DNA from: Lacticaseibacillus casei DSM 20011 = JCM 1134 = ATCC 393
GTDB lineage: Bacteria > Bacillota > Bacilli > Lactobacillales > Lactobacillaceae
DNA: 64,000 nucleotides
Direction: 5' to 3'
Assembly (NCBI RefSeq): GCF_000829055.1
Contig: NZ_AP012544.1
Location: forward strand, 682,001-746,000
The notes below the pieces were generated by a model. The model saw only the letters and a list, made by a program, of their open reading frames with translations, searched no databases and was not told the DNA's origin. Both the position numbers and the translations under genes were made by a program. Positions 32,499-56,893 of the stretch are shown in pieces (the stretch's first letter is position 1; every line of letters begins with the position of its first letter).

Positions 32499-32506
32499 TT
32501 TTTTAT

Positions 32507-32596
32507 GGAGAGTTGTCCGAGAGGCTGAAGGAGCATGGTTGGAAACCATGTATACGGGTTTTACCTGTATCAAGGGTTCGAATCCCTTACTCTCCG
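32507..32596 (+). tRNA. tRNA-Ser (GGA)
   Basis: A 90-nt class II tRNA: acceptor GGAGAGT with ACTCTCC, anticodon GGA between CATGG and CCATG, a long variable arm, and T-arm GGTTCGAATCC. It is the last gene before the prophage B integrase, which makes its 3' end the likely attachment site. Confidence 0.96.
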
Positions 32597-32717
32597 TTTT
32601 TATGCTTCTAGATGCTTTCTATAGCTTCCCAGAATGCTGGTATAAAGGCATTCTGGGATTTTTGTTTCCTTTTATTTTCGGTTGTTTTTTCCCTCCGGTG
32701 CACAAAATGTGCACAAG
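32597..32717. other. Left boundary region of prophage B (attL expected)
   Basis: The integrase gene ends at 32,718 on the minus strand, pointing at tRNA-Ser. The attachment core is therefore expected within the 3' part of tRNA-Ser or in this short spacer. The partner site is beyond the window, so the core cannot be fixed. Confidence 0.5.
32627..32665 (+). terminator. Terminator after tRNA-Ser
   Basis: TCCCAGAATGC pairs with GCATTCTGGGA over a 10-nt loop and is followed by TTTTT. It ends the rrn-tRNA transcript. The 3' end of the integrase gene lies just beyond. Confidence 0.9.
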
Positions 32718-33848
32718 CTAAAGTCTTGAAAGTGCTTGTAGCGTCTGGGATACCTGCTCTTTTCTTTGATCTTCAAGAAGATGAGCGTAGACTTTTTGAG
32801 TGATCATTGTATTGGCATGCCCAAGTCTTTTTGAAATATAGTTAATGTCAACGTGATTGGCAATCAAATAGGAAACGTGAGTGTGTCTAAGCCCATGGAA
32901 AGTAATCGCGGGGGAAATGTCGAGAGTCTTCTCGATCGTCCTTAGATCCTTATTAATTGCCGTGCTCGATAGCATGTTATGCCGTATGCTGCGAAATAAT
33001 AGTTGTTTGCTATCACGATATCCCTGAGCAAGGTAGACCTCTTGCTGTTCTTTCTTGAGACGTAAAAGCAAGTCTGCAAGTTCTCTCGTGATGTCGATGT
33101 CACGTACACTTGATTTGTTCTTAGTAGCAGCAAAGCCGCTGCCATATCTGTGATCCCACGTTTTTGTAATGTGCACAACGCGCTTTTTAAGATCAACACG
33201 ATCCCACGTGAGCCCAAGAACTTCAGAATACCTAGCTCCGGTCAGTGCCCCGGTTGCGATGATGTAGTAAGCAATATGCTCGTAGTCTGCAAATTCTAGG
33301 CAGTAATTGACGAGCTTGCGCAAATCCTTTACTTGCAAATATTTGATGATTCCTGCTTGGCCTTCATTACCAGTGAGGACGACGTTATGAGTGAAGTTAG
33401 TATATATTATTTGGTCATCGACGGCAGAATCAGCCATTGAGCGAACATAGCCATTCAATTTGCTGACTGTATCTTTAGCCCTTTTTTTGCCAAACTCATT
33501 GATAAACCCCTGCCAGTCTGATTTTGAAATTGATTTTAGTTCACGGCTTTCGCCCCAGTAGGCTAATAACTGTTTACGAATTGTTTTATACCGGGCTTCG
33601 GTGATACGAGAATGCTTACCAGATTTGTACAGCTCAATCCATTTGTCCCAGTAGTCGATTAACGTTATCTTGTTAAGATCCAAATTTGCACCGCGATTAT
33701 GCTGACGTTCGACTTCGATTGCCGCTATATCAGCAGCTTTTTTTGAGGGGAAGCCACCTTTGTTGACATACTTGCGTGTTCCATCATTATCCTTGTACGA
33801 GACACGATATTGCCATTTTTTGCCACGTTTACTAATGCTGGCCATCAT
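32718..33848 (-). CDS. int: Phage integrase, tyrosine recombinase
   Basis: 376 residues; AAGGAGG lies 5 nt before the ATG at 33848 and 8 nt before a second ATG at 33845, either of which may be used. In order: an arm-type AP2-like DNA-binding domain (about 1-55), a SAM-like core-binding domain (about 65-150), and the catalytic domain (about 175-370) with Arg in TGARYSEVLGLTW, HGLRHTH and the nucleophile Tyr in ITQKVYAHL. It integrates and excises prophage B, most likely at tRNA-Ser. It is transcribed toward the tRNA, the usual arrangement. Confidence 0.95.
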   Translation of the reverse strand: MMASISKRGKKWQYRVSYKDNDGTRKYVNKGGFPSKKAADIAAIEVERQHNRGANLDLNKITLIDYWDKWIELYKSGKHSRITEARYKTIRKQLLAYWGESRELKSISKSDWQGFINEFGKKRAKDTVSKLNGYVRSMADSAVDDQIIYTNFTHNVVLTGNEGQAGIIKYLQVKDLRKLVNYCLEFADYEHIAYYIIATGALTGARYSEVLGLTWDRVDLKKRVVHITKTWDHRYGSGFAATKNKSSVRDIDITRELADLLLRLKKEQQEVYLAQGYRDSKQLLFRSIRHNMLSSTAINKDLRTIEKTLDISPAITFHGLRHTHVSYLIANHVDINYISKRLGHANTMITQKVYAHLLEDQRKEQVSQTLQALSRL

Positions 33849-34098: not shown

Positions 34099-34785
34099 TC
34101 ACGGTAGTTTTAGTCTTATTACGTCTGATTTTTCAAGGCCCTTCTCAACATCATTATGTCCGTGAATATAGTGATTCCACTTTGCATTAGCTAAAACGTC
34201 ACAGAGCTGTATTCGCCTGTCAAAATTGGAGTCCATAAATTTTACGCTTATTTTAGCATTTGAGGTAATGTATGACGGAGAATAGTACTGGGCGTGAAGG
34301 TGATTTGATAAATAGTTGGGAAAGTCATCATATGAAATCATTTTGGTTTTTGGCTGATCATCTATGTATACGTTTATTGTTTCTGATGTATACCCACATT
34401 GTCGAAAATCTACAATACACTTTTCGACAAATCGACGAAGAAGATAGTTCTTATGAAGCTGCTTTTCTTCCTTTGTGCTCAGCGGTTTTTCTAGAGATTT
34501 TAGATATTCAGAAACAAACACAGGATGAAAAGATCCTTCGCTATCTGAAACGATTTCGCTCAGTAGAATTCGCTCTTTTCGATGCTTCATCGTCGAAGCT
34601 TTTTTCTCACCATTTTTACAACTGGGGAAAAGCCTAATTAATTCTCTGCCAAAATTTGCTGAAATATTTTCAGACTGATCAGAGGTACACCAAAAACCTC
34701 CATATACAAAATAGTCAGGACTAGCATCACTTTTACAAAGGGTGCCAGATTCGTCTATATAAATTGATAGTTGTGTCTCATCCAT
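34099..34785 (-). CDS. DUF3800-domain protein
   Basis: 228 residues with GGAG 9 nt before the ATG. The N-terminus has the DUF3800 signature (IYIDESGT...YFVYGGF). A central Asp (NVYIDDQ) and the C-terminal FDRRIQLCDVLANAKWNH match the remaining acidic motifs, consistent with an RNase H-like fold. DUF3800 proteins are frequent in phages and defence loci, and their biochemical role is not settled. As last gene of the lysogeny operon it is a candidate for immunity or superinfection exclusion in the lysogen. Confidence 0.75.
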   Translation of the reverse strand: MDETQLSIYIDESGTLCKSDASPDYFVYGGFWCTSDQSENISANFGRELIRLFPSCKNGEKKASTMKHRKERILLSEIVSDSEGSFHPVFVSEYLKSLEKPLSTKEEKQLHKNYLLRRFVEKCIVDFRQCGYTSETINVYIDDQPKTKMISYDDFPNYLSNHLHAQYYSPSYITSNAKISVKFMDSNFDRRIQLCDVLANAKWNHYIHGHNDVEKGLEKSDVIRLKLP

Positions 34786-48721: not shown

Positions 48722-48924
48722 TTGCAAATGAAAAAGCGCGTCTGATGAAGGACGCGCCGGAGGCCATAATGCATATGATTGATAGCAAATGGAATCATTT
48801 AAAAGGAGTTGGCCTCCTCGAGCATTATAACAAAAGCGCACCATCGCGGCACGCTTATCCTCAAACCCAGCAAAATTATACCATAAGGAGTGGACGCAGT
48901 GGTGCGAGCAACGAGATATTTTAG
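48718..48924 (+). CDS. Doubtful small phage ORF
   Basis: 68 codons from an ATG that overlaps the preceding stop. The N-terminal third (NEKARLMKDAPEAIMHMIDSK) looks like real helical protein; the C-terminal part is low-complexity and overlaps the arpU start. A GCGCGTC..GACGCGC hairpin lies within it at about 48,737-48,758. Confidence 0.35.
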   Translation: MIANEKARLMKDAPEAIMHMIDSKWNHLKGVGLLEHYNKSAPSRHAYPQTQQNYTIRSGRSGASNEIF

Positions 48925-49351
48925 CCCAATTGATCATGACAAAACAATTGAAAACGCCAAAGAGGTCTTGAGGAACTACTGGCATCACAAGCGGCTCGCT
49001 CAACGCACCAAAATAGCGCTCAGAAGTCCCGTGATGGACGGCATGCCCAAGTCACCTAGCTATGGCAACAAAGCCGAGGAAAAGGTAATATCGCACGCTG
49101 ACGAGCTGTACTACGTTGAATGTTGTGAATCGGCAGTTGATGCTATTGAAGATGAGGATTACAGAACGATATTGTCTGAAAGCTACCTTATTCCAGCAAG
49201 CAAACGAAAAACAAACGAAGCACTTTTCGATTTGATAGGTGTTGGCAAGACGGCATATCAAGACAAAAAGAAGCAAGCACTTATTGCATTCGGTGAACTA
49301 TGTCCGCTGGTAAAGCTAGAGCGAACTAATGGCGAACTATATGCGAACTAA
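48899..49351 (+). CDS. arpU: ArpU-family late transcription regulator
   Basis: 150 residues from GTG 48899 with AAGGAG at 8-nt spacing; GTG 48902 is possible. ArpU pattern: an N-terminal helix (TIENAKEVLRNYWHHKRLA), SPVMDGMPKS, and a C-terminal sigma-like HTH (LFDLIGVGKTAYQDKKKQALIAF). ArpU/RinA-type proteins activate late gene promoters before the packaging module. The 380 bp after it hold the tRNA-like element. Confidence 0.85.
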   Translation: MVRATRYFSPIDHDKTIENAKEVLRNYWHHKRLAQRTKIALRSPVMDGMPKSPSYGNKAEEKVISHADELYYVECCESAVDAIEDEDYRTILSESYLIPASKRKTNEALFDLIGVGKTAYQDKKKQALIAFGELCPLVKLERTNGELYAN

Positions 49352-49731
49352 GTGCGAACCAACCAACCGTATTTCCGTCATATGATTGTATTGTGCCAAA
49401 GGTGAGAAACCTGAGACACCGCATTTTTCCTCCGAGCCATGGTGATGATAAAGCTGTGGCAAGGCGTGGCAAATGGACTGGCTGTGATAGTCAGGCGGGT
49501 TCGATTCCCGCATGCCACATTGTCCAGTTTAGCGACCGGACACAGCTTACGATGACCCCATCTGACACTGGGAGAGCGAGCAGAAGACATATGAAGCACA
49601 GATATCACCTCAATGTAGTATTCCAGTTCATGCTGGGGTACTATTTTGTTGACCTCCTATTTTCCACCCGTTATACTTACTTTGCTAAGGAAAAGATTTC
49701 ATTACCAGCTTGATGCGAGGAGGAGAATGAT
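49352..49731. other. Non-coding stretch between arpU and the Panacea gene
   Basis: No supported gene. It holds the tRNA-like element (49456-49519), an adjacent TGTCC..GGACA hairpin (about 49,520-49,545), and, after about 49,600, an AT-rich lead-in to the antitoxin gene. The late promoter activated by ArpU may lie here. Confidence 0.45.
49456..49519 (+). tRNA. Degenerate tRNA-like element
   Basis: A perfect T-arm (GCGGG-TTCGATT-CCCGC) with the universal GGTTCGATTCC box, and an acceptor stem GTGGCAA with ATGCCAC (one mismatch). A short D-arm (CGT-GGCAA-ATG) and an anticodon stem GACTG/TAGTC close a loop GCTGTGA. The loop lacks U at position 33, the total of 64 nt is short, and the variable loop is 2 nt, so aminoacylation is doubtful. 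It could be a decayed tRNA or a structural mimic. Confidence 0.5.
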
Positions 49732-50388
49732 ATGATTTGGTCAAACGAACGCAAATTGTCGCTTAGCGGTTGGCTACAAAAAAACGACTATTCTAGTTTC
49801 GATACCCCATTGAAGCTGCAAAAGTTTTTATTTTTTTATGAGTCTTCTGCTAAAGTAGAGGCTGACAATTACGATTTCGCAAAACTAAAGGGATATAAGA
49901 ATGGCCCTGTTTTTAGTCAAGTGTGGGGAGACTACACTAAAGAACGGCAAGGATTCGAGGAGAAAAGTAGGACCGCTTATGAAGAAGATCCTTCAATTGT
50001 CAACGAGCCACGCGCGAAAATAATTGACTTTTTCATCAGAGTTAGTAGCCCTGTTGAACTTTCTGAAGTTACACATCACATGGATATTTGGTCTAAAAAG
50101 AAGGATCGAATAGATCGAGATGAAAAACAAGTTGAGCTTGACAGTGACGACTTTTCCAAGCACGATGCCGACATTATAGAGACTATTAGAGAGGCATTTC
50201 CTATTTCATATGTGGAAACTCATAAGGTTTTACCAGTGGGCAATAAGAGTTTCGTGATGAGTAATGAGGATGCTGTGAGGTTAACGCCTGAGCAATCAGC
50301 TACTCTTCAAGCGCTTTCCCAAGAACCAGAGCTAGATAATCCTGTTTATGTGCATTTGGACGCAAACGGAGGGATTATTGTTGATTAA
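49732..50388 (+). CDS. Panacea-domain (SocA-like) antitoxin
   Basis: 218 residues behind AGGAGGAG. Residues about 8-125 carry the Panacea/DUF4065 pattern: TPLKLQKFLFFYESSA, then LKGYKNGPVFSQVWGDYTKE. The domain is known as a versatile antitoxin module that neutralises many unrelated toxins encoded next to it. The C-terminal ~80 residues are a separate extension. The partner gene begins inside its last codons with its own ribosome binding site, the usual toxin-antitoxin coupling. Confidence 0.82.
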   Translation: MIWSNERKLSLSGWLQKNDYSSFDTPLKLQKFLFFYESSAKVEADNYDFAKLKGYKNGPVFSQVWGDYTKERQGFEEKSRTAYEEDPSIVNEPRAKIIDFFIRVSSPVELSEVTHHMDIWSKKKDRIDRDEKQVELDSDDFSKHDADIIETIREAFPISYVETHKVLPVGNKSFVMSNEDAVRLTPEQSATLQALSQEPELDNPVYVHLDANGGIIVD

Positions 50389-50791
50389 GGAAAAAGATGT
50401 GATAACCCTTTTGGTTCCTTATCCAACGGAGGAATCGGCGTTGGCCTCGAATTCGCATATGTACATTTGTGAAATTGCCAATGAAGGAGATGCGGCTCTA
50501 ATAAAATGTGAAACTTTCAAAATTAAATTTTTGGCTCATCCTCCTGTCAGATCATTTGTTAAAGAATATCCTTCAATCGAAAGAAACCCGTTTGTTAATC
50601 CTACCCTAATAGATTGCGACAAGGATTTCCATGTCACTGGAGTTTACATTCCTGAAAAACTCTTAGCAAAAAGACGGAGAAATATATGCGATCCCCTTTT
50701 TTCAAAAGTTATTGAGATGTTGGACGATAACGGTCATGAGAGTGAGGAGCTTAACCCTAGAGAGCTAATGGTTCTAAATGCTGCATTATAG
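50381..50791 (+). CDS. Putative toxin partner of the Panacea antitoxin, family unknown
   Basis: 136 residues from TTG 50381, with GGAGGG 8 nt upstream inside the antitoxin gene and an 8-nt overlap. A beta-rich N-terminal half (VITLLVPYPTEE ... MYICEIANEGDAALIKC) is vaguely like small PemK/MazF barrels, but I see no convincing active-site match. The C-terminal half is helical (RRRNICDPLFSKVIEMLDD). The toxin call depends on coupling to a Panacea gene. Confidence 0.55.
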   Translation: MIKEKDVITLLVPYPTEESALASNSHMYICEIANEGDAALIKCETFKIKFLAHPPVRSFVKEYPSIERNPFVNPTLIDCDKDFHVTGVYIPEKLLAKRRRNICDPLFSKVIEMLDDNGHESEELNPRELMVLNAAL

Positions 50792-50829
50792 ACATTATCT
50801 GAGACGCCACGTCGTCTTTTATTTACCCA

Positions 50830-50863
50830 AGCACTCCGCCAAACGGTGAGGTGCTATTTTTGT
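50830..50863 (+). terminator. Terminator of the Panacea operon
   Basis: AGCAC..CCGCC-AAA-CGGTG..GTGCT hairpin followed by ATTTTTG, 40 bp after the toxin stop. Confidence 0.75.
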
Positions 50864-50864
50864 G

Positions 50865-50942
50865 CAACAAAAAAGCCTCCAGCCACCCAAGCTGAAGGCA
50901 CACATGAGGAAGTAAGTGTGATTGCAAGGTGACCTGCCTTGC
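50865..50942 (-). ncRNA. Candidate small RNA 1 of a tandem minus-strand family
   Basis: Extended -10 TGCTATACT on the minus strand (-10 at 50949-50954). Then a TTGCAAGG..CCTTGCAA hairpin, the unpaired motif CTTCCTCA, and a terminator (GCCTTCAGC..GCTGGAGGC, one mismatch) ending TTTTTTGTTG. Length about 78 nt. It is downstream of csbD on the same strand but has its own promoter-like signal. Confidence 0.45.
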
Positions 50943-51048
50943 AAGATCAGTATAGCAGGTGAGTTTATCAAATGCGTAAAGCTCTTGTACCGGATTTGTA
51001 CAGGTTTAAAAAGGCAATAAAAAAGCCGGCAGTTTGCCGGCCAGTTAA

Positions 51049-51675: not shown

Positions 51676-52893
51676 ATGCAATGGACAGATGAACAAATCA
51701 GCGGCATTAGGAAGCTCGCCTCTGAAGGTTTTACCAGACGAGAGGCGGCAGACAAGCTCGGGATTAGCTACGATGCGCTTCAAGGCAAAGCAAGACGGCT
51801 TGGTATCGAGTTCCAAAAGCCACTAAAGAATGAATACGATTCAGACGGCACAAATAGGGAGACACCACCCGCTGACAGAAAAGTAGCTCTTAATGCTGAT
51901 GGTAGCCAAACAGTCACGGCATTAATGAGACTCAAGCATGAGCCAAATAAAGACCCACGAACTTTGATGGAGTTGTGTGGATACGATCCTGATAAGTTCG
52001 AGATGGTCTTAGGCGACTACAAAGTGTATGAGCAGCATAGTACCGAAGACGGTACAGTTCCGCAGTACAGCATTCATATTCGCGTAAAGCCGAAACAAGG
52101 CTTATCGATAAGTGAAATGGCTGAAGCGTTCAACGACAAAATCATTCCGGTCAATTACGGCATGAAGAAATCGGGCGATCGCAACTTAGTCATCCCATTG
52201 CCTGACCTGCATTTTGGCTGGACAACATTCGCCGATCTAAAAGACATGGTGAGTCAACTTAGAGAGATCATCATGGACGGCTACAACGAGATTGTGATCG
52301 AGCAATTGGGAGATCTATTCCATAGTGATCAGATTCATGCAACACAAACGGTTAGAGGAACACAACTAGATCACGCAAACATGCGTCAGGCATTCCATGA
52401 TGCTGTGAAGTTGTTTGATCAAATTGTTCCGCTGGCAATTGAATATAGCAATCGCGTCTCAATCAAGAGCGTGTTCGGTAACCATTCAGGTGATCTCGAA
52501 TACGCTTTTCTTTATGCGCTGATAGATCGCTATCCACAAGTACGCGTTGATCTCAATGACAGTAATCCGGCAACAGACTGGCGCTGTGCATACTTGCTAG
52601 GACATGTTGGAATTATGTTGGCTCATGGTGACGTCAGCAGGGACAAGCTGACAAGCCTTTTCCCATTTGAATACAAAAGGATATTCAGTGTGGCAAAAAC
52701 ATACGAACTTCACTCAGGCCACTATCATAGCGAGCGGTTTAAAGATGATCGTGGCATTATGTGGCGCCAGCTTGGAACAGCAAAGCCAAATGATCCCTAT
52801 GAGATTAAGAATGGCTTCACCACGGGCAAACATCTGCTGTATGCGTTCGTTTATGACGATGAAAGACTGAGGTGCACTTATGAACTCAACTGA
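51676..52893 (+). CDS. HTH-metallophosphoesterase phage protein
   Basis: 405 residues behind AGGAGG. The N-terminal ~55 residues are a resolvase/GcrA-like HTH (FTRREAADKLGISYDALQGK). The rest (about 165-400) is a calcineurin-like phosphoesterase with all metal motifs: PDLHFG, LGDLFHSD, GNHSGD, LAHGD and SGHYHS. Such proteins occur just before HNH and terminase genes in many Firmicute siphophages. Likely a DNA or nucleotide phosphoesterase or nuclease, targeted by the HTH; the substrate is unknown. Confidence 0.85.
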   Translation: MQWTDEQISGIRKLASEGFTRREAADKLGISYDALQGKARRLGIEFQKPLKNEYDSDGTNRETPPADRKVALNADGSQTVTALMRLKHEPNKDPRTLMELCGYDPDKFEMVLGDYKVYEQHSTEDGTVPQYSIHIRVKPKQGLSISEMAEAFNDKIIPVNYGMKKSGDRNLVIPLPDLHFGWTTFADLKDMVSQLREIIMDGYNEIVIEQLGDLFHSDQIHATQTVRGTQLDHANMRQAFHDAVKLFDQIVPLAIEYSNRVSIKSVFGNHSGDLEYAFLYALIDRYPQVRVDLNDSNPATDWRCAYLLGHVGIMLAHGDVSRDKLTSLFPFEYKRIFSVAKTYELHSGHYHSERFKDDRGIMWRQLGTAKPNDPYEIKNGFTTGKHLLYAFVYDDERLRCTYELN

Positions 52894-55280: not shown

Positions 55281-55325
55281 AGATGAAATATCATAATTCA
55301 TCTGATGATCATGGAGGGATTTTCT

Positions 55326-56003
55326 ATGCCCAGATCTAAGCATACAGCTCAAGAAAAGTTACTCATATTGGAGGAGTTCAGACATTCGAATATAAGTATC
55401 AGTAGTTTCTCCCGTCAACACGGTCTTGGTGATCGCACATTACAACGTTGGCAGGCGCGCTATGAACGCGATGGGATTAAGGGATTAGAGGAAGCTCGAA
55501 AGAATCAACATTATACCAAGGAACAAAAGCTTGAAGCAGTACTTGCTTATCTCAGTGGTGAAGGGTCATTAGCCGAAGTCACGATGCAATTTGGTCTGCG
55601 CTCATCAACACAATTGCAAAGATGGATAGCCATGTATAATAGGGATCATCAATCTTTGACGGCTTCACCGTCTAGAAAGCAGGTCCCCACCATGAGTCGT
55701 ACAACCACCTTCGAAGAACGCATTAAAGTCGTTGAATATGTCACTAAGGGTAAGCACTCCTATACTGAAGCGGCAGCCCATTTTGATGTGTCTTATCAAC
55801 AGGCACGGTCTTGGGTGATCAAGGCTCGCGAAGGCGGTTATGAGACGCTGGTAGATAACCGTGGTCACCACAAAGACAAGCGTGATCTAACCGAATTAGA
55901 CAAGGCCAAACTGCGCATTCGTCAACTAGAAGCTGAGCTCAAGGACAAAGAGCTAGTGGAGGCCTTTGTAAAAAAATTACTGGAAATCCAGCACAAGGAG
56001 TGA
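55326..56003 (+). CDS. IS150-like OrfA, HTH protein
   Basis: 225 residues from ATG 55326 (GGAGGG upstream). Long OrfA type with three HTH units, each followed by a basic linker (SFSRQHGLGDRTLQRWQARY, the second near 75, the third near 160), then a coiled coil (RIRQLEAELKDKELVEAFVKKLLE). It recognises the IS ends. At its 3' end GTA AAA AAA TTA allows a -1 slip into orfB. Confidence 0.9.
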   Translation: MPRSKHTAQEKLLILEEFRHSNISISSFSRQHGLGDRTLQRWQARYERDGIKGLEEARKNQHYTKEQKLEAVLAYLSGEGSLAEVTMQFGLRSSTQLQRWIAMYNRDHQSLTASPSRKQVPTMSRTTTFEERIKVVEYVTKGKHSYTEAAAHFDVSYQQARSWVIKAREGGYETLVDNRGHHKDKRDLTELDKAKLRIRQLEAELKDKELVEAFVKKLLEIQHKE

Positions 56004-56893
56004 TCAAACAACACCGACAAGCTTACCGTGCCATCGAAGAAGTTAGTCAAGGCCAACATGGCGCTGTCACAAAGTTATTGGACGTTATTGGCATCAGCCG
56101 TCAAGCTTATTACAAAGGCTTAAGGCGGGAGGAAACAGTGTGGGAGGTCCACGATCGGCGGCTTAAGGAGCGGACTCAATATTGGTTTGATTTTCATCGC
56201 CAAGGCATTGGTGCTGGGAATCTTCTGATCAACTTACAACAAGATGAGCTGATTGACTTTCCGATCACGATCAAACAAGTTCGTCGCGTCATGCGCGAGC
56301 TTGACATTCGATGTCAGATCCGCCAAAAACGGCATAGTCGCGTCAAGCAATCTGAACAGTACCTGCAAGACAATGTGCTCAATCAATGTTTCTACGTGGA
56401 ACGCCCTAATCAAGTCTGGCTAGCCGACTCAACCGAGTTGAAATACGGTATCAACGGCGAGTACAAGATGCGCCTCAGTGGCGTTCTTGACCTCTATGGC
56501 CGCAATCTGTTGGCTTACAACCTGAGTGCAACCGAAACAACCGCTGCCGAGATTCAGGTCTTCCAGCGCGCTTTCACTCGCGCTGGCAACGTCCATCCGC
56601 TCATTCATACTGATCGTGGTTCCGCCTATACATCCAAGGCATTCAACCGCTACCTCAACCAATTTGAAGTCACACGAAGTATGTCACGGCCGGGAACGCC
56701 CTATGACAACGCACCGATAGAGCGCTGGTGGAACGAGTTTAAACTGCGGTGGATGGATCGTCATCCAATGGCAAAGACTTACAAGGAATTCGTCAAGCTC
56801 GTTGAAGACGGGATCCACTATTTCAATCACGACAACCGTTCAGGACAAAGAGACGGCCTTACCCCAGAAGAATACTGGAATAAGGCCATCTAA
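56000..56893 (+). CDS. IS150-like OrfB transposase, DDE core
   Basis: 297 residues. Overlaps OrfA by 4 nt in the -1 frame, and the frame is open back to the slippery site, so it is most likely made as an OrfAB fusion. Integrase core motifs: Asp in VWLADSTELKY, Asp in LIHTDRGSAYTS, and Glu in APIERWWNEFKL. Intact, so the element may be mobile. Confidence 0.92.
   Translation: MIKQHRQAYRAIEEVSQGQHGAVTKLLDVIGISRQAYYKGLRREETVWEVHDRRLKERTQYWFDFHRQGIGAGNLLINLQQDELIDFPITIKQVRRVMRELDIRCQIRQKRHSRVKQSEQYLQDNVLNQCFYVERPNQVWLADSTELKYGINGEYKMRLSGVLDLYGRNLLAYNLSATETTAAEIQVFQRAFTRAGNVHPLIHTDRGSAYTSKAFNRYLNQFEVTRSMSRPGTPYDNAPIERWWNEFKLRWMDRHPMAKTYKEFVKLVEDGIHYFNHDNRSGQRDGLTPEEYWNKAI

Follow-up and report, generated by a model that had tools for sequence, protein, structure and literature searches.

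Antitoxins of the Panacea type (PanA) are paired with MazF-like putative RNase toxins (PanT), and validated pairs of this kind exist (PMC8832971). The PanAT pairs of Bifidobacterium ruminantium and Pseudomonas moraviensis carry MazF/PemK-like toxins that inhibit protein synthesis (Kurata et al., 2022; PMC8832971). According to the text of that study, PanA–PanT binding was shown for five PanAT pairs, RNA cutting was proposed for the MazF-like PanTs, and the PanTs of eight out of 25 selected pairs were not toxic in E. coli; PanAT toxins are sorted there into 88 toxin clusters (PMC8832971). Paired with another antitoxin, a toxin of the mRNA-interferase fold that gives no HHpred match has also been reported (PMC10440598).

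Here, we describe a gene pair of Lacticaseibacillus casei found in a stretch of 64,000 nucleotides (C1:682001–746000 of a 2.95 Mb genome; hereafter the window), which we interpret with moderate confidence as a prophage Panacea (PanAT) type II-like toxin–antitoxin module whose PanT has a very divergent MazF fold and probably cleaves RNA. Like the B. ruminantium and P. moraviensis systems, it combines an apparent Panacea-type antitoxin with a partner that has no named domain and is predicted to be MazF/PemK-like. The toxins of those two systems are linked to MazF by HHpred, whereas the profile of the window PanT is unlike a Lactobacillales MazF profile. PanT resembles the MazF/PemK mRNA interferases (PF02452) in predicted fold and rough size, but it has no PF02452 match and its candidate antitoxin is of the Panacea type rather than MazE-like. 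With the SocA/SocB system of Caulobacter, in which SocA is a protease adaptor, the pair apparently shares the domain family of its antitoxin. A further likeness is to NCBIfam NF045891, the Mbov_0400 family of ICE proteins from mycoplasmas: residues 21–133 of a Mycoplasma partner are colinear with positions 29–140 of the 152 in the model, although the E-values (0.4 for that partner and 0.12 for one of 27 alignment members) fall far below the cut-off. This Mbov_0400 link is only a lead, and a literature search on it gave nothing naming these genes. The pair itself was not found in the text of PMC8832971 or PMC10440598 and may sit unnamed in their datasets. Since PanA proteins with MazF-like partners are known (PMC8832971), the pair adds a variant to that kind, provided that it is not already present unnamed in the supplementary clusters.

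The gene pair and its prophage slot

The pair sits in a 46-kb Lacticaseibacillus prophage, probably framed by 17-bp repeats, with the arpU gene on one side and exonuclease/HNH genes on the other. The relevant features, in window coordinates, are as follows.

32584–32600, + strand: probable attL core of 17 bp, overlapping the 3' end of tRNA-Ser (32506–32597)
48890–49351, + strand: arpU-type late transcription activator (phrog_248, E 8.8e-41), upstream of the slot
49600–49652, + strand: left arm of the slot, with a terminator-like hairpin (49615–49644), ending in the -35-like TTGA of the candidate promoter
49649–49677, + strand: candidate promoter of the pair (TTGACC-17-TATACT, 10 of 12 consensus bases)
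49732–50388, + strand: PanA, divergent Panacea/SocA-type antitoxin candidate, 218 aa, ATG start (phrog_1281, E 6.5e-16)
50381–50791, + strand: PanT, candidate toxin, 136 aa, TTG start, predicted MazF/PemK-like fold (phrog_29631, E 5.5e-26)
50801–50877, + strand: right arm of the slot; its terminator-like hairpin spans 50801–50818
51676–52893: exonuclease (phrog_704)
78602 (G000:C1:760602): probable attR, the same 17 bp, 46.0 kb on

A gene that we take to be integrase-like from reading its sequence lies at 32718–33848. The region around the pair is matched by 45 phage records, and 12 of these loci were fetched and compared. The left arm was matched in six of them (A2, iLp84, BH1, R3.1, C3.1 and R23.9, in the last as far as 49647), and in the same six phages the right arm was matched from 50802, 50817 or 50829 onward. 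Between the two retained arms, from about 49652 to 50802–50829, these phages carry other cargo; the remaining six loci are without the left arm. Because the same arms flank other cargo in six of the 12 related phages, the pair is a moron, an exchangeable cargo cassette. This exchange supports the preliminary description, which had called the position between arpU and the packaging region typical of a moron.

The cargo of the related phages is varied. In BH1 the slot holds a gene for a 357-aa protein (L133:1127–2197) with a weak C-terminal TIR-effector match (E 4.3e-4), and in R3.1 one for a 215-aa protein (L141:1808–2452) with a weak proteasome-type match (E 2.1e-4, just under the cut-off); a gene equal in length to the latter occurs in C3.1. 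The 286-aa protein encoded in the slot of R23.9 (L144:1138–1995) has no match. Lc-Nu and R24.1, which are without the left arm, have D12-type DNA methyltransferases between arpU and the exonuclease. The exchangeable slot of Lacticaseibacillus phages offers a place to look for more genes of defence or toxin type.

The frame of PanT overlaps the end of PanA by 8 nt (TTGATTAA) when read from TTG 50381. A GGAGG ribosome-binding site (50368–50372, + strand) lies inside the last PanA codons and ends 8 nt before this TTG; an in-frame ATG also exists upstream, at 50348. The starts were compared in 42 partner sequences out of 63 locus rows, none letter-identical, though some are one or two residues apart. 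A TTG at the exact 8-nt overlap was found in 38 of them, an ATG at the 8-nt overlap in one, and a TTG one codon upstream, giving an 11-nt overlap, in three. All 42 partners, from several genera, thus overlap the adjoining PanA by 8 or 11 nt, and TTG 50381 is preferred over ATG 50348 because it is conserved among these sequences. A purine motif of at least four bases occurs within 20 nt upstream of the partner start at 29 of the 30 loci examined. The arrangement suggests coupled translation, and the conserved overlap, TTG and purine motif together would fit an operon with the antitoxin gene first and a lower yield of toxin than of antitoxin. Open reading frames and conservation therefore bear out the two-gene layout, the TTG start with its own ribosome-binding site and the 8-nt overlap that had been read from the window in the preliminary description. 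Its claim that the pair has its own terminator stands in part: a terminator-like hairpin is present, but as a consensus match, and the count of such sites in 49300–51000 is near chance (three against a shuffle mean of 1.5). The candidate promoter is likewise a consensus match, as four promoter-like sites were found against a shuffle mean of 3.5.

Linkage and distribution of the pair

With the PanA alignment alone as query, 16 loci were found on genome contigs and 18 on viral contigs, some of these being identical places. The partner lies directly behind PanA at 15 of the 16 genome loci and at all 18 viral loci (33 of 34), so that it is conserved beside this PanA subfamily, as the preliminary description would have it. 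In the sole exception, L031, PanA is intact and an early stop interrupts the partner. At the Mycoplasma locus L034 the partner is readable with code 4 (TGA = Trp), and L044 was counted as partner-bearing though its PanA is split between two frames, the partner being intact.

At the family level (397 genomes), PanA matches occur in 14, of which the four strong ones have the partner; 11 weak PanA loci (L013–L023, E 2.6e-7 to 2.8e-4) are without such a partner and were left out of the pair counts. The partner query matched four of the 397 genomes, the window's own included and one match being poor, and PanA was present at all six viral loci found from the partner. In the order, the partner query gave 15 matches in 13 of 395 genomes, 12 of them with PanA; in G701 (L078) the partner contains a stop codon and no PanA was found. 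L079 and L080, which are lipoprotein-like, were dropped as false partner relatives, and L008 and L028 as probable chance matches. In the phylum, two of 363 genomes matched, namely the window's own and G813, where an intact partner follows a PanA reduced to about its last 38 residues. Among 50,697 phage records the partner was found in one and PanA in four; two of these four PanA matches span about a third of the protein only, and the Javan89 record stops at the PanA stop codon, so that the partner position lies beyond it. Neither protein matched a plasmid at E<=1e-3. Single-sequence scans of the genome and viral contig collections confirmed no relatives, and those described here came from alignment queries.

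These locus counts across the genome, viral and phage collections describe a rare and patchy pair whose two members are strongly linked, G813 and L044 being counter-cases. The distances of PanA and PanT correlate over 25 loci (Mantel r 0.61, p 0.0001), as shared ancestry alone could produce. Of 126 neighbouring proteins picked, 118 were scanned, and no PHROG family occurred in more than four of the 118. As the neighbours differ between loci, the conserved unit is three genes at most, with no longer operon around the pair. Among the 25 of 270 neighbour PHROG families listed, endolysin and holin account for most of those with names, alongside integrase, amidase, ABC transporter, tape-measure and minor head proteins.

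Protein families, predicted folds and proposed mechanism

PanA matches a PHROG family (phrog_1281) of unknown function. The window protein gave no Pfam match at E<=1, PF13274 (Panacea/DUF4065) included, but 16 of the 26 members of its alignment match PF13274 at that threshold, weakly (best 6.5e-5). The 'clear' Panacea/SocA-like domain of the preliminary description is therefore probably right as to type and is weaker than was claimed. One relative, L062, matches the NCBIfam SocA_antitoxin model weakly (E 0.0086, 15.8 bits against a cut-off of 190), and Imm44 (E 9.1e-4) and similar single-member matches were taken as chance. PanA contains the GPV motif as KNGPVFS, and GPV is named as a Panacea motif in PMC8832971. 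Its predicted structure has a pLDDT of 96.6 and no match in the PDB by fold at E<=0.001. Beyond the Panacea-like part there is a conserved C-terminal extension (about 140–218), in which N203, P204, V205, G213 and D218 are near-invariant; the coding sequence of this extension also contains the ribosome-binding site of PanT. The L047 clade is without the GPV motif and retains the C-terminal tail and partner overlap.

PanT belongs to phrog_29631, whose function is also unknown. The window protein has no match in Pfam, NCBIfam or PADLOC, and a PADLOC scan of the 27 alignment members found none. Pfam gave ten weak matches among these 27, each in a single member, and NCBIfam six, also single (best MecI_of_mecC, E 0.0037). 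As each occurs in one member only, we read them as chance; phage tail assembly chaperone (E 0.012), Ntox30 (E 0.073) and MecI_of_mecC were rejected as identities on this ground. A packaging or structural role, which the preliminary description had set against its own reading, was likewise rejected, the only PHROG matches being 29631 and a chance-level 23645, and the weak chaperone match being confined to one of the 27 relatives. A sequence search of the PDB gave nothing useful.

The model of PanT has a pLDDT of 94.2 and a pTM of 0.88. Its four best matches in a viral structure library are phage proteins, two named as endoribonucleases, one as a PemK/MazF toxin and one as PemK-like; they have E-values of 3.5e-4 to 2.7e-3, a probability of 1.00, a TMq of 0.49–0.61 and an identity of 7–11%, and one match alone in this library reaches E<=0.001. 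Against the PDB, Foldseek gave no match at E<=0.001; the best 50 of 323 matches, all weak, include ribosomal proteins and other unrelated folds, with no MazF among them. A comparison of the PanT profile by hhalign with a profile of 38 PemK sequences, drawn from Lactobacillales genomes, showed no similarity (probability 0.2%), and PF02452 is listed for none of the 27 members at E<=10. The MazF link thus comes from predicted fold, in one of two libraries, since the PDB and profile comparisons gave nothing. MazF catalysis uses the Arg of an RP motif together with a Thr/Ser. By eye, PanT carries HM where MazF has RP. Conserved polar residues (H26 in 27 of 27 members, K47 in 26, T or S45 in 25 and D78 in 25) would suit an enzyme, and P13, P15, Y28, N-P-F and D-x-D-K are also conserved. 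The preliminary description had proposed an unrecognised partner and a new toxin family. PanT indeed has no named family, but the fold predicted for it is similar to that of the PemK/MazF toxins, which are reported to pair with Panacea proteins (PMC8832971), so that its kind is not entirely unknown.

In the mechanism that we propose, PanA would be made first and in excess, and the overlapping, weak-start PanT by coupled translation. By analogy with the five other PanAT pairs (PMC8832971), PanA probably binds PanT directly and keeps it inactive. Loss or titration of PanA, or interference by a phage, would release PanT, most likely a very divergent MazF/PemK-fold ribonuclease, which would then cut RNA and stop translation. 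Retention of the prophage, or protection of the lysogen by abortive infection, would be the likeliest benefit of the cassette.

The toxin–antitoxin part of this reading we regard as likely; the RNase part, derived from the model of PanT, is the view that we somewhat favour. A Panacea pair whose small-barrel toxin spares RNA and acts on another target, for example gyrase or the ribosome, seems unlikely. CcdB, a gyrase toxin, falls within the same broad fold as MazF. The MazF signature is not recognisable in PanT, ribosomal proteins and unrelated folds, and no MazF, appear among its best 50 of 323 PDB matches, all weak, and P13, P15, H26, Y28, N-P-F and D-x-D-K form a pattern of their own; set against this, the best viral-library matches are specifically PemK/MazF proteins and endoribonucleases. 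G813, L044 and G701 count against any toxin reading, because an unopposed toxin should be rare. It is improbable that the pair is a two-gene regulatory or anti-defence module, with a non-toxic partner and the Panacea-type protein as scaffold or protease adaptor: the intact partners beside a largely lost (G813) or split (L044) PanA would agree with it, as would the eight of 25 PanTs that were non-toxic in E. coli (PMC8832971), but the antitoxin-first overlap, weak start codon, moron slot and patchiness are typical of toxin–antitoxin pairs. Relatives do decay, as the broken partner of L031 and the split PanA of L044 illustrate. That the window copy is itself an inactive remnant is nevertheless very improbable, as both of its frames are full length, it shares start, ribosome site and overlap with its relatives, and its PanT keeps the residues conserved in at least 25 of 27 partners.

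A more far-reaching version of the toxin–antitoxin reading is tentative and rather doubtful, namely that PanT founds a new toxin family with a MazF-like barrel and an active site of H26/T45/K47/D78 in place of Arg/Thr, and that the C-terminal extension of PanA, and not its Panacea domain, recognises PanT. The extension is suggested as the recogniser because the L047 clade has lost GPV, and G813 nearly all of PanA, yet tail and overlap remain. With the favoured reading, PHROGs 1281 and 29631, whose members here come from prophages and a satellite phage of Bacillota, lactobacilli included, would gain a defined, testable function, and the Panacea network a MazF-fold candidate that sequence profiles miss. 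As a possible growth-arrest or anti-phage switch carried by a phage, PanA–PanT lends itself to testing.

Further Panacea genes and other elements of the prophage

The same prophage has a second Panacea gene at window coordinates 77372–77872 (L146, L004), which follows an endolysin-like gene, lies beside the probable attR and matches PF13274 over the cut-off (26.6 bits). It is overlapped by an open reading frame for 210 aa (77853–78485), which has no PADLOC match. There are thus apparently two Panacea modules in one prophage. A third Panacea gene, L003 (G000:C1:401057–401284), lies elsewhere in the chromosome behind another endolysin-like gene; it is similar to the second, with PF13274 over the cut-off (26.9 bits), and no overlapping same-strand partner frame of at least 70 aa is listed for it.

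Just after arpU, a tRNA-like 3' end lies at about 49460–49525, where a tmRNA model matches 49495–49511 (17 bits, E 0.0015, below the gathering score). The surrounding 49300–49740 matches 45 Lactobacillus/Lacticaseibacillus phage records, and under this match tRNA-Ile is annotated in iLp84 and PLE3 and tRNA-OTHER in CL2; ARAGORN calls nothing here. The interval between integrase and repressor is a usual place for accessory genes in prophages, and in this one it holds what looks to us like a DUF3800-type gene (34099–34785, - strand). Near the packaging region, two open reading frames at 55305–56893 read to us like an IS3-type transposase pair, and this IS3-type-like insertion may have inactivated the prophage.
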